Source: Bacteroidia bacterium (GTDB taxonomy: Bacteria; Bacteroidota; Bacteroidia; UKL13-3). Taken from it: a stretch of 64,000 bases of DNA. The stretch's first letter is position 1, and each line of letters begins with the position of its first letter. The notes below the pieces were generated by a model. The model did not search any database. It had not been told where the DNA came from and saw only the letters and a program-made list of their open reading frames with translations. The stretch is taken from contig JALONK010000009.1 in NCBI GenBank assembly GCA_025454975.1, forward strand, positions 1 to 64,000, in the 5' to 3' direction. Position numbers and translations under genes: made by a program. This document shows, piece after piece, positions 32,116 to 36,927 of this stretch.

Positions 32116-32150
32116 AACAGCCCTTTAAGTGTGATACCAAAAGGGCTGTT
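32116..32150 (-). terminator. Intrinsic terminator closing the SMC-like operon
   Basis: aacagcccttt ... aaagggctgtt 11-bp arms, U-run on the minus transcript. Confidence 0.8.
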
Positions 32151-32170
32151 ATAGAAAATAAAAATTTTAT

Positions 32171-32713
32171 TTATTCGGCTTCTTCTTCAACCGTATTCTG
32201 TTGCAGTTTCCCTTTCGCAAAGTTTTTGGCAAAATCCATAAACACTTTGTAAGCAGGAGTGAAGGTGAATTTTTTATCGGAATTTCTATCAATAATATTC
32301 CTTCTGTTTAAGGTACCGATAAATTGTTTACGGGCTTCACTGTTTTTCAGTTGATTATTGTTTTGTATAAGGTCAACATACGATGAATTGTCGAACAAGT
32401 TATCAATCTGTTCAGCATCAAATTCGGCATATTGAATTTCGTCTAAAAAGTTCTTGCCTTCTTTATCAAGTTCATAACATAAAAGTCCGATAAAAATACA
32501 GATGTCGCGGCTAAGCATTTCCATCGTTTCTTCACTAATTAAATAGGCGTAATCAGATTTTATATCAAGATAAAAATCGAAGGTTTCTTTAAAAAACTTG
32601 CCATAAAAGTCGGTATTGTTTTTTAATTCAATAAACTTCGCATCGGTTGCCAAAATAAATTTGCCATCCAATAAATCACCTACAATTTCTTTATGATATC
32701 TAGGAAAGTCCAT
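32171..32713 (-). CDS. Putative kite subunit (MukE/MksE/JetB-like) of an SMC-like complex
   Basis: 180 aa, helical, winged-helix-like C-terminus (RNIIDRNSDKKFTFTPAYKVFMDFAKNFA); 14-bp overlap with the upstream kleisin-like gene. Assigned mainly by context. Confidence 0.6.
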   Translation of the reverse strand: MDFPRYHKEIVGDLLDGKFILATDAKFIELKNNTDFYGKFFKETFDFYLDIKSDYAYLISEETMEMLSRDICIFIGLLCYELDKEGKNFLDEIQYAEFDAEQIDNLFDNSSYVDLIQNNNQLKNSEARKQFIGTLNRRNIIDRNSDKKFTFTPAYKVFMDFAKNFAKGKLQQNTVEEEAE

Positions 32714-33902
32714 ATCGTTTTATTTTAATTTTTGGTACACGTAAATTCATTTCTGTAGTTCTTATCACCATGCGATCGGCCGAGGCATCAAACTCCAATT
32801 CAATATCGTCTTCAAATAGGAGTGTGCTTAGTGAGAAGAATTTTTCTGTTTCAATTTCTTTATATTCACCCCTCAAGGTTTTTCCTGCCCATTCAAAAAA
32901 GTTTGGCATTGGTAATTCCTTAATCATGGCATCACGATAAAATTCTTTATTGAAAATCCATTTATCTTTTGCATTTAAATCGGGCTCATCTAAATAAATA
33001 TCGCTGGTATACATGTATTCCTGCACATATTCTAAGGCATTAAAATACATGGCATTATTGTATGGATAAGCACGTTTTGATTTTGGCACAAATGGACCTT
33101 TTACTTTGTCAGGATTTTTTAAAAATTCAATCCACCCTGTTAAAATCATTGATTCACTTCTAATGCGCTCAATTAACGGTAAAAGTTCGTTGGTTAATAT
33201 TTTCGACTGACGCAATAAGTCGTCATTTGTTTGTACCAAAAAGGTATAAAGTTTTTCAAACTGTTGACGAGCGGTTTCATCATCAAAGTTTAAACGACGG
33301 ACATTTATATATTGCGAAATATCTAATAGCCTGTTGGTGATAGATTGGCTATGACTAACATCTAAAATTGAATTTAATGGAGTGATGTAATAATCAATCC
33401 AAAAACTTGCTTTACGAACCTTTTCTCGGTAGTCTATTTTGTCAACATTCGATTTGAGTTCTTTGGTTTCACTAATCAACCTAATTGTATTTTTTTCTAC
33501 GGCTTCGGTAAAATCACGTACTTCATTATATAAATCAGTGATGCGTTGTAATAAAATATTACGGTCTTTACCAATGCCTTCTTTTATTTTTTTGAATAAT
33601 GAAGTGATGGAGTGTTCATATTTTTCAATGGTTTCAGGCAGCAACGGTTTAAACTCGCTGAGGATAAACTCAAGGAACTTAAAATATACAGGCCTGATTT
33701 CATAGTCATCAGCAACCTTCTTGAAAAATTTGTATTCGATTAGTTTGTTAAGAATGTCGTGATCATATTGCGACATAATTTTATTCAATACTTCTCTCTT
33801 AACAAGACCTTCTTTCACTTGTATATCAAACAACTCTTTAATCATGTCGTAATAGTTCGACATGAAATTGAGGATTGTTTTTGGTTCGACTCTAATGCTC
33901 AT
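32700..33902 (-). CDS. Putative kleisin subunit (MukF/MksF/JetA-like)
   Basis: 400 aa: N-terminal wHTH-like part (VKREVLNKIMSQYDHDILNKLIEYKFFKKVADDYEIRPVYFKFLEFILSEF), long helical middle, beta-rich C-term; between the SMC and kite genes. Confidence 0.6.
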   Translation of the reverse strand: MSIRVEPKTILNFMSNYYDMIKELFDIQVKEGLVKREVLNKIMSQYDHDILNKLIEYKFFKKVADDYEIRPVYFKFLEFILSEFKPLLPETIEKYEHSITSLFKKIKEGIGKDRNILLQRITDLYNEVRDFTEAVEKNTIRLISETKELKSNVDKIDYREKVRKASFWIDYYITPLNSILDVSHSQSITNRLLDISQYINVRRLNFDDETARQQFEKLYTFLVQTNDDLLRQSKILTNELLPLIERIRSESMILTGWIEFLKNPDKVKGPFVPKSKRAYPYNNAMYFNALEYVQEYMYTSDIYLDEPDLNAKDKWIFNKEFYRDAMIKELPMPNFFEWAGKTLRGEYKEIETEKFFSLSTLLFEDDIELEFDASADRMVIRTTEMNLRVPKIKIKRYGLS

Positions 33903-33924
33903 AATGTGATGTTTGGTTAAAGAA

Positions 33925-36585
33925 TTACACTTCCAGTTTTAAGTTTTTATCTAAAACTTCACCATAAGCAGCATTGGTTTTTTCGTTGATGTTAATTTTA
34001 CCTGTGCTTCTGAAAATAAAATAATATTTACCAAAGCCCGGTACAGCGTCAGGTGCAGCAAAAATTGGAATAAAATAATGGTCTTTACAAAAACGTACCA
34101 GTTCCGGACGATTTTGTTTATCAATTGTTGCTACCTCATCAATAAACAAGGCAATTCTATTTTCATGGTCGGCAACTGCCAAACGATTAATAATATTCAT
34201 GATAATCACCAAACGAATCATTTTGTCGGTTCCATCACTTTCAATTTGCTGACTTAAATCTACTTGTTTGGTGCTGCCTTTTCTGCTTAAGTGTAAGGTA
34301 ATATCAAATAAATCATCAAACTCTATTTGTGCCCCGGTTTCTAAATAGTGATCAAGCACCTTTAAGTTTTCACTGTTGTCGAACTCAAACATCAACTGTC
34401 CGCTTACCTGTTGAATCTGACTTATTTTTTTTACCTCATCCACCAATCGTTTGTTATCAATCAATTCAATCGTAAGCGATTCAATATCGGAAATACGTGT
34501 TTGCGAAAGTTTAGAGTTAAACTTATTGTAAATAAATTCTTTAAACTCTTCATATCTTTTTAATAAGGTGTAGGCAGGGTTTGCAAACTGTGTTGATATA
34601 CTCTCCAATAACGATTGAATACTTCTTTCTTTATCTTCAACTAAAGCTACCTCTTCTTCTACATATTTAATAAAATCGTTTTCATCAGCGAAAGTACTTT
34701 GTAATTTATCTCTTAGTTTTTCAAATAAATGGTCTTTGTTTGATTTTAGCGTGATGCGGTCTTGCCAGTTAAGCTTAATTTTATTAAACAACTGGTCTAA
34801 ACTTTCATTGGTCTCAAATTCCTCTCCTGTTAGTCCTAACTCATCAATTTCATGCTTCATTTCAATGAGCCTGTTGATGCGTTCCTGACGTTTTTGTTTA
34901 TCGTCTAATAAATCCCTCAGCTCATTACTTTTTCTTGCAATGGTTTTTGCGATTTGTTTTTGCGCGGTTTCAAATTGCTCTTTCTGCGCCATCAAATCGT
35001 TAATATCAGCTTTTAATCGCTCGGCATTTTTTACTAATTGTGGTTTAGTTTTAATGCGGTTAAGCTTAATTTTTATTTCATCAATTTTTGTGGTGATGCC
35101 ATTCAATTCGTTAATAGAGGCTTCCATGTCCTTCACCACCTTTAACAAACTTTCTTGTTGAGCTCTATCTTCTTTTAGTGCGGCTAATTCATCCTTTAAT
35201 TCATCAACATTTTTAAAATCTTTAATGGTAATGTTTTTTGATAAATCAATCTGACCATCAAATATGGTAAGGGTTTGACTAATCTTATGTATTTGTTTAA
35301 GAACCTGATCTCCCGGTAAACTACTTACCTGCTCACTTAAAATTGAATTTAATAATTTTCGGTTTTCAACTGAACCCGAAATTTTATTAATTAATAAATT
35401 GCTATAGTTTTTTACCTGCATTTCAATGCGAGTAATTTGGTCGGTTATTCTAACAATCTTGTTTTCAATTTGCTGGCTGTTTAACTTTTGCAATTCAGCC
35501 ATAGTAATTCGACTTTCAATACTTTTTCTTTGCAGGTCGAGATTAGCTAATTGTTCGTTTAAAATATTAACCGGTTCATACGAATCAATTTCTTTTAATT
35601 CACTCTCTTTTTCTGCCAATAACGAACTGCGTTCCCTGATTTCAACTTCCTTACCACCAATTTTTCTGTCGAGTTCAGCTTTTTCGGGAATTAAATCCTC
35701 ATTGATTTCTGTATTTAATTTACCAATACTTTTGTCCTTTTCATGCAATTGTACCTGAAGTTCGGGTAAGGTATGGTTATAACTTTTATTAAATCCAAAA
35801 TACAACTCGCTTAAAATACGGGCTTTTGCGTTGTATTGACTAACCAATTCTCTGAAATCATCAAACTCATTTTTAACCGATTTAAGGTTACGAATTTCAT
35901 TATTGATTCGTTTAAGATCTAAAATGTCTTTTTTGTTTTTTTGCGAAAAATTTAACGTTTCATTTTCCCTGTTATCCGCTACAATAAGCGCTTCTTTTAA
36001 GTTTTTATTGGTAATTAACTTGGTATTGATTAAATAACGATAGATACGTGAAAAGTTATTACTTATACCTTCGCTTCTAACGCTATCATCAAGCCATACC
36101 ACACCATTGTTGCGCTTACCTCTTTGGTAAACAAATTGGAATACCTCGCGTTTATCTTTAAACATTTCAAGACCTAAACCTGAGGCGGCAATTTGTTCTT
36201 TTACCTCCTCAAATTTTAACAATCGTTTATCGTCGCCAATAAAAAAGTCTTCTTTATATTCACTATCAAACTTGTAGTATTCTAAATTACTTTCAGCATC
36301 CCTTTTTACCAAAATACTGTAATATGATTTTTTAAATACTTCGAATACAATATAACTTTGATTATGGTTAGGGAAATAATGATGAATGGTTTCTTTGTCA
36401 CCTTTACGATTACCACTAAAACTCATTTTTTGTCCATCAATGATGAATAAAAAGTTGAGGGCATATATAAGTGTACTTTTTCCAATATTGTTAGGCCCTA
36501 CCAATTGTAGGCTATCGCAATCATCCAGGCGCACTTCGGCTTTCCCGTACACTTTACTGTTTAAAACAATTACACGCGTTAACAT
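33925..36585 (-). CDS. SMC-like ATPase (MukB/MksB/JetC-like), 886 aa
   Basis: N-terminal Walker A LVGPNNIGKSTLIYALNFLF, long coiled-coils, C-terminal signature QQIESDGTDKMIRLVIIMNII, Walker B IALFIDEVATID. Confidence 0.85.
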   Translation of the reverse strand: MLTRVIVLNSKVYGKAEVRLDDCDSLQLVGPNNIGKSTLIYALNFLFIIDGQKMSFSGNRKGDKETIHHYFPNHNQSYIVFEVFKKSYYSILVKRDAESNLEYYKFDSEYKEDFFIGDDKRLLKFEEVKEQIAASGLGLEMFKDKREVFQFVYQRGKRNNGVVWLDDSVRSEGISNNFSRIYRYLINTKLITNKNLKEALIVADNRENETLNFSQKNKKDILDLKRINNEIRNLKSVKNEFDDFRELVSQYNAKARILSELYFGFNKSYNHTLPELQVQLHEKDKSIGKLNTEINEDLIPEKAELDRKIGGKEVEIRERSSLLAEKESELKEIDSYEPVNILNEQLANLDLQRKSIESRITMAELQKLNSQQIENKIVRITDQITRIEMQVKNYSNLLINKISGSVENRKLLNSILSEQVSSLPGDQVLKQIHKISQTLTIFDGQIDLSKNITIKDFKNVDELKDELAALKEDRAQQESLLKVVKDMEASINELNGITTKIDEIKIKLNRIKTKPQLVKNAERLKADINDLMAQKEQFETAQKQIAKTIARKSNELRDLLDDKQKRQERINRLIEMKHEIDELGLTGEEFETNESLDQLFNKIKLNWQDRITLKSNKDHLFEKLRDKLQSTFADENDFIKYVEEEVALVEDKERSIQSLLESISTQFANPAYTLLKRYEEFKEFIYNKFNSKLSQTRISDIESLTIELIDNKRLVDEVKKISQIQQVSGQLMFEFDNSENLKVLDHYLETGAQIEFDDLFDITLHLSRKGSTKQVDLSQQIESDGTDKMIRLVIIMNIINRLAVADHENRIALFIDEVATIDKQNRPELVRFCKDHYFIPIFAAPDAVPGFGKYYFIFRSTGKININEKTNAAYGEVLDKNLKLEV

Positions 36586-36927
36586 AATCTTTACTTGATA
36601 TAATTCGGGTACAAGTTAACCGTGCCTGAATTGTAGTTACCCACCTTTTATACACACTTCGCAAAGTGTTGATGGTGTAATGGTTGAGGCATTTACAGAA
36701 GGTGTGGTAAAAATTATATGATGCTAACTTTCTTTTTCAATGACTCAATTTATTACCATAATCGCCTAAAGATTCTGATGTTTTATGATTTCTTTAGTCT
36801 AAATTTAGTGTAACTACTTAAATTAATATTCTTTTATTACATCTTGTAAATGAGTTGAATGTAAATTATATACATTAAATATGATTATTTATATATTTTG
36901 CGTTATTCATATACCATTTTTATAAAT

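Follow-up and report, generated by a model that had tools for sequence, protein, structure and literature searches.

The DNA analysed here (the window, 64,000 nucleotides) contains an SMC-kleisin-kite operon with no nuclease gene beside it, which raises the question of whether the encoded complex is a housekeeping condensin, a decayed Wadjet or a system using a different effector. The first of these options, all three offered by the initial annotation, fits best; given that no sign of degeneration is seen in the trio, plain Wadjet decay is unlikely. The locus touches on a broader open question, namely whether MukBEF-like condensins descended from plasmid-defence machines (PMC10586767). Chromosome-acting complexes without JetD are known, namely MukBEF and the MksBEF of Pseudomonas aeruginosa (PMC7617805, PMC10586767), the latter of which is thought to derive from JetABCD through loss of JetD (PMC10586767). 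Below, f1 denotes the family of the window genome and f5 and f9 other families; G-numbers are genomes and L-numbers loci.

Architecture of the operon and its subunits

Three tightly packed genes occupy the minus strand, as the initial annotation had described: an SMC subunit gene (MukB/MksB/JetC-like, 33925..36585, 886 aa), a kleisin gene (MukF/MksF/JetA-like, 32700..33902, 400 aa) and a kite gene (MksE-like, 32171..32713, 180 aa). The SMC and kleisin genes are separated by a 22-bp spacer (33903..33924, minus strand), and the kleisin and kite genes overlap by 14 bp. The operon ends, again as described, in a hairpin with a T tail that is its probable terminator (32116..32150, minus strand); its perfect 11-bp stem, in which 32150-32140 pairs with 32126-32116, encloses a 13-nt loop and is followed by TTT, and it is missing from the terminator-scanner output because the scanner accepts loops of up to 8. 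The divergent intergenic region of 312 bp at the other end (36586..36897, minus strand) presumably contains the promoter, where the best sigma-70-like match is TTGAAA-16-TATAAT at 36740-36713, the number of such matches in the region being no higher than expected by chance. The flanks encode an S9-type peptidase, RibF, an M23 peptidase, a threonine aldolase, a ferredoxin, an acyl-CoA reductase-like protein and an M1 peptidase (names assigned by inspecting translations), with no obvious integrase, transposase or defence gene among them. The arrangement is not due to chance, as the intact operon recurs in about 50 genomes, and every homologous locus examined has the order SMC-(JetD)-kleisin-kite. 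The operon is thus SMC-first, as first noted; however, its order is not reversed, B-(G)-F-E being a cyclic permutation of the usual F-E-B-(G) (kleisin-kite-SMC-nuclease).

The short, 886-aa SMC protein has the layout of a MukB-type ATPase, with an N-terminal head (residues ~1-210), a coiled-coil arm (~216-396), a small hinge-like middle (~400-460), a returning arm (~461-695) and a C-terminal head (~696-886). It carries the Walker A (GPNNIGKST), signature (ESDGTDKM) and Walker B (LFIDEVATID) motifs noticed at the outset, and the Walker A core, the S-G-T of the signature and the D-E of Walker B are invariant in 19 homologues. By sequence it shows generic ATPase matches only, and the MukB N-terminal Pfam family does not match it. 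MukB takes the top four places among the PDB matches of its AlphaFold model (pLDDT 72, pTM 0.42; E 1e-14 to 6e-13), ahead of Rad50 and JetC, with condensin and Smc5/6 next. The N-terminal head weakly matches AAA_21, AAA_15 and an SbcC-like PHROG, as well as PADLOC AriA (E 2e-8 over residues 28-134). An AriA identity was rejected, the match being limited to the common ATPase head and no AriB-like partner being seen alongside. That the protein is a RecN/SbcC/RloC/AriA-type ATPase with unrelated neighbours is barely credible, since these weak matches cover mainly the common head, whereas the whole model best matches MukB, the CxxC zinc hook of Rad50 and SbcC is absent (the only Cys residues are at 23 and 833), and the same operon encodes an MksE kite and a neighbour with a kleisin-like fold.

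The 180-aa protein belongs to the MksE/MukE kite family, matching Pfam PF21980 (MksE) at E 6.4e-22 with a score of 79 bits, where the cut-off is 27. The 400-aa protein matches no sequence-family profile, and its assignment as a MukF-type kleisin is supported at the level of fold and by position. Its AlphaFold model, built from 22 homologues and of moderate quality (pLDDT 76, pTM 0.43), predicts an N-terminal winged helix, a helical middle (a bundle), a linker and a C-terminal winged helix, and its three best matches among 350,542 PDB chains are JetA of JetABCD, MukF of MukBEF and MukE-MukF, at E values near 0.01. Sequence profiles of all three proteins retrieve nothing relevant from the PDB chains past generic coiled coils. 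In hhalign comparisons with kleisin-first Bacteroidota Mks sets, which rest on shallow alignments, the SMC gives a weak match (probability 52%), the JetD-like protein of some relatives a weak match with its DxD aligned, and the kleisin and kite (MksF included among the targets) none. Given the MksE match of the kite and the folds of the SMC and the kleisin, the trio is a divergent MukBEF/MksBEF-type complex of the Wadjet group, in agreement with the initial proposal.

The JetD-like gene at the SMC-kleisin junction

The initial annotation described the operon as lacking a nuclease, which is correct for the window and, as far as JetD_C and short-JetD searches can detect, for its genome and nearly all other f1 members, including the single-contig genome G324; a very divergent nuclease could still lie elsewhere in the window genome. 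However, a JetD-like TOPRIM protein of 261-279 aa is encoded exactly between the SMC and kleisin genes, at the position of the 33903..33924 spacer, in G327, G313 and G315 of f1 and in G186 of f9. Within f1 it thus accompanies the kleisin in 3 of 52 genomes, the other 49 having no nuclease, and outside f1 it was seen in a single genome. The TOPRIM residues E142-N143 and D185-Y-D187 are invariant in these proteins. The G327 copy matches Pfam JetD_C (26.7 bits, cut-off 22) and PADLOC JetD1 (E 1e-6) and the G186 copy more weakly; the G313 and G315 copies were assigned by homology to these two. A further genome, G377, retains an in-place remnant of ~15 N-terminal and 42 C-terminal residues, from which the middle, including the TOPRIM residues, has been deleted.

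The JetD-like proteins share 33-38% identity in every pair, whereas the SMC proteins of their hosts share 43-74%, and the gene is AT-richer than its own operon in the three f1 carriers. G327 and G313 are each nested among JetD-less sisters, and, with four carriers, parsimony on the kleisin-kite tree requires four JetD changes. One and the same lepB/aroC site of genus g142 holds the operon with the nuclease in G327 and without it in G354, and the kleisins of G313 and G379, from one genus, are 98.3% identical in DNA although JetD is present in G313 alone. A single ancestral Wadjet with later JetD losses was set aside, on account of the uniformly low JetD identities, whatever those of the SMC, and of the nesting. 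Together with the four-change parsimony, these data fit better with JetD having been repeatedly gained or exchanged at one site, plus at least one loss (G377). Since the divergence among the JetD copies greatly exceeds that of the operons hosting them, the nuclease resembles an optional, plug-in part. A phage or viral origin was also rejected, as the kleisin has no phage match and the JetD-like protein no match to plasmids or viral contigs.

Two further observations concern the junction. Between G313 and G379, dS is 0.09 for the kleisin, compared with 0.57 for the 3' end of the SMC gene (84 codons) and 0.45 for the kite, a contrast that suggests local recombination around the JetD site. The SMC-kleisin spacers of G371 (415 bp), G308 (241 bp) and G377 (430 bp) are filled by repeated AT-rich units carrying the inverted repeat AGCCGTT..AACGG, where a neighbouring genus has JetD.

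Distribution, selection and probable role

A survey of Bacteroidota for the trio, suggested with the initial annotation, finds it in about 50 genomes, in most of f1 and as one copy. Of the 64 f1 genomes, 52 have the kleisin; among the 45 of high quality it is present in 38, with no match in the remaining seven. Outside f1, SMC homologues occur in G347, G333 and G186, all of other families, at 30-55% identity. The kleisin-kite tree clusters by genus, with 12 changes over 13 groups (the minimum being 12) against 33 in shuffles, g1 and g145 not forming single clades; since deep f1 branching consists of open forks with long outgroup branches, no root state was read from it. Neither ScpA nor the Smc hinge was found in any of the 35 f1 genomes tested, including G324 (3.24 Mb). 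Of 23 other relatives, four have ScpA and the same four have the hinge, and ScpA occurs in 247 of the 297 genomes of a phylum sample, which places f1 in a part of the Bacteroidia from which Smc-ScpA has been lost. The trio is not strictly essential, nor is it obligatory in genomes without Smc, because seven high-quality f1 genomes yield no kleisin and the five trio-less f1 genomes that were re-searched yield no alternative MukB-type SMC. In many other Smc-less Bacteroidia neither the trio nor an alternative MukB-type SMC was found. Candidates for the latter in f5 and other Smc-less families were rejected as weak P-loop matches, mostly to short stretches of the ATPase head.

Selection has acted strongly on the operon. 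In pairs of nuclease-free genomes dN/dS is mostly 0.01-0.06 for SMC, kleisin and kite, with a maximum of 0.068, and every complete copy examined has an open reading frame of full length; selection thus keeps the complex as a functional unit without JetD. The initial annotation had held that a JetD homologue linked to the operon in close relatives would make it an ordinary Wadjet. The linkage exists (three of 52 f1 genomes, one genome of another family and the G377 remnant), but the conclusion does not follow, because the great majority of genomes maintain the trio without the nuclease under strong purifying selection. Across loci there is no conserved extra gene beside the trio and no mobile genes were seen there; in g142 the operon lies between lepB (upstream) and aroC (downstream), downstream of parA-parB-dapB and thus within the parA-parB-dapB-lepB cluster.

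Taken together, the trio probably organises the chromosome, extruding DNA loops at the expense of ATP, in a Bacteroidota family without Smc-ScpAB; in a few lineages an inserted JetD would have made it plasmid-cleaving. Loop extrusion, the chromosomal role and DNA cleavage by JetD are what we infer, largely by analogy with MukBEF and JetABC. The SMC heads would bind and hydrolyse ATP, the kleisin would close and dimerise the motors, and the kite would stabilise the kleisin and contact DNA, so that chromosomal DNA would be entrapped and extruded into loops with the energy of ATP. The default form of the operon encodes no nuclease; with a short JetD-like TOPRIM protein encoded between the SMC and kleisin genes, the same motor may turn into a plasmid-cleaving, Wadjet-like device, in which a small circle, once fully extruded, would be cut. 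The trio has the look of a defence machine that became a chromosome organiser or serves as one in addition. More tentatively, it could be the main condensin of its Smc-less family, the SMC-kleisin junction being a socket that repeatedly gains and loses divergent JetD-like nucleases and so switches the motor between chromosome folding and plasmid destruction.

Nuclease-free defence seems unlikely: plasmid or phage DNA would be recognised by complete extrusion and then silenced or compacted, as by Smc5/6, or a different, unlinked effector would be recruited. The three genes are of known defence-group ancestry, relatives with JetD in the operon resemble Wadjet, and the JetD copies diverge fast and, in f1, have a higher AT content than the adjoining genes, both common traits of defence genes. 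However, single-copy presence in most of f1, clustering by genus, low dN/dS, housekeeping surroundings and the lack of adjoining mobile or conserved extra genes and of phage (kleisin) or plasmid (JetD-like) matches argue against it. An ordinary Wadjet with its nuclease supplied in trans is very unlikely. Complete kleisin-kite-SMC-JetD operons do exist in two f1 genomes, apart from the nuclease-free trio (L104:3111-9666 in G314, with a DUF3375-containing JetA and a 390-aa JetD with DUF3322 and JetD_C, and a similar set at L105:4994-11582 in G330), but the window genome and nearly all of f1, G324 included, give no JetD match from which such a nuclease could come. That the operon is the decaying remnant of a Wadjet deprived of its JetD is highly improbable; the deletion within the G377 gene and the loss of the trio from some f1 members would suit it, but the reading appears already largely refuted by the intact genes and low dN/dS of nuclease-free genomes, and the four-change parsimony points to JetD gains rather than to one ancestral JetD lost many times.

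In favour of the chromosome-organising role, ScpA and the Smc hinge are missing from f1, the operon has housekeeping neighbours, and G314 and G330 possess a canonical JetABCD in addition to their nuclease-free trio. Moreover, f1 has retained one operon in two forms, nuclease-bearing and nuclease-free, and in one genus both forms occupy an identical chromosomal position. The pairs G327 and G365 or G354, and G313 and G379, thereby offer natural before/after comparisons for a transition between defence and condensin. The case of Bacteroides is a separate one: ScpA is missing from f5 genomes (e.g., G021, G057, G103) and from many Smc-less relatives, and no MukB-type SMC turned up in those re-searched. 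This fits the open question of which complex folds Bacteroides chromosomes, which the trio does not solve, as such an SMC was not found in the f5 genomes tested.

Known systems and kleisin-first operons

The trio shares with Wadjet (JetABCD, synonymous with MksBEFG) an SMC, a kleisin and an MksE-family kite in one operon and, in a few relatives, a JetD-like TOPRIM protein with conserved E and DxD. However, the canonical order is mksF-E-B-G (PMC10123090), and the window has neither this order nor a JetD gene in the operon; 49 of 52 kleisin-bearing f1 genomes have no nuclease, the SMC has 886 aa, and the trio-linked JetD (261-279 aa) is shorter than the canonical one (~390 aa in L104/L105) and hardly detected by JetD models. 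MukBEF of E. coli and its relatives is likewise nuclease-free and chromosome-borne, in genomes without Smc-ScpAB, and its MukB is closest in fold to the trio SMC. In contrast to MukBEF, the trio has a much shorter SMC that does not match the MukB N-terminal Pfam, is SMC-first, carries JetD in some relatives and is not universal in its own family. P. aeruginosa MksBEF coexists with Smc-ScpAB, whereas trio genomes have no detectable ScpA or Smc hinge and a permuted operon. Smc-ScpAB shares the general tripartite architecture, but Smc hinge and ScpA were not found in the f1 genomes, and the trio kite is of the MksE type. This permuted, nuclease-optional variant of the Mks/Wadjet group is new. The latest survey of the group kept candidates with MksB >890 aa and MksF 400-1200 aa (PMC7617805) and may have missed this branch, since 40 of 41 full-length SMCs have at most 890 aa and 38 of 50 kleisins fewer than 400.

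Kleisin-kite-SMC order is found in L104-L112. At L108, L110, L111 and L112 (G335, G337, G343 and G346, Bacteroidia that also have neither ScpA nor Smc hinge), kleisin-first mksF-E-B operons have no obvious JetD-like neighbour, and at L108 the signal peptidase gene lepB lies two genes upstream. In two other kleisin-first operons the SMC gene is followed by a gene for a TOPRIM-like protein of 312-317 aa (L106:6369-7307 and L109:10670-11623), which barely scores with JetD_C or Spo11 TOPRIM models and is probably a divergent JetD overlooked by the standard models.
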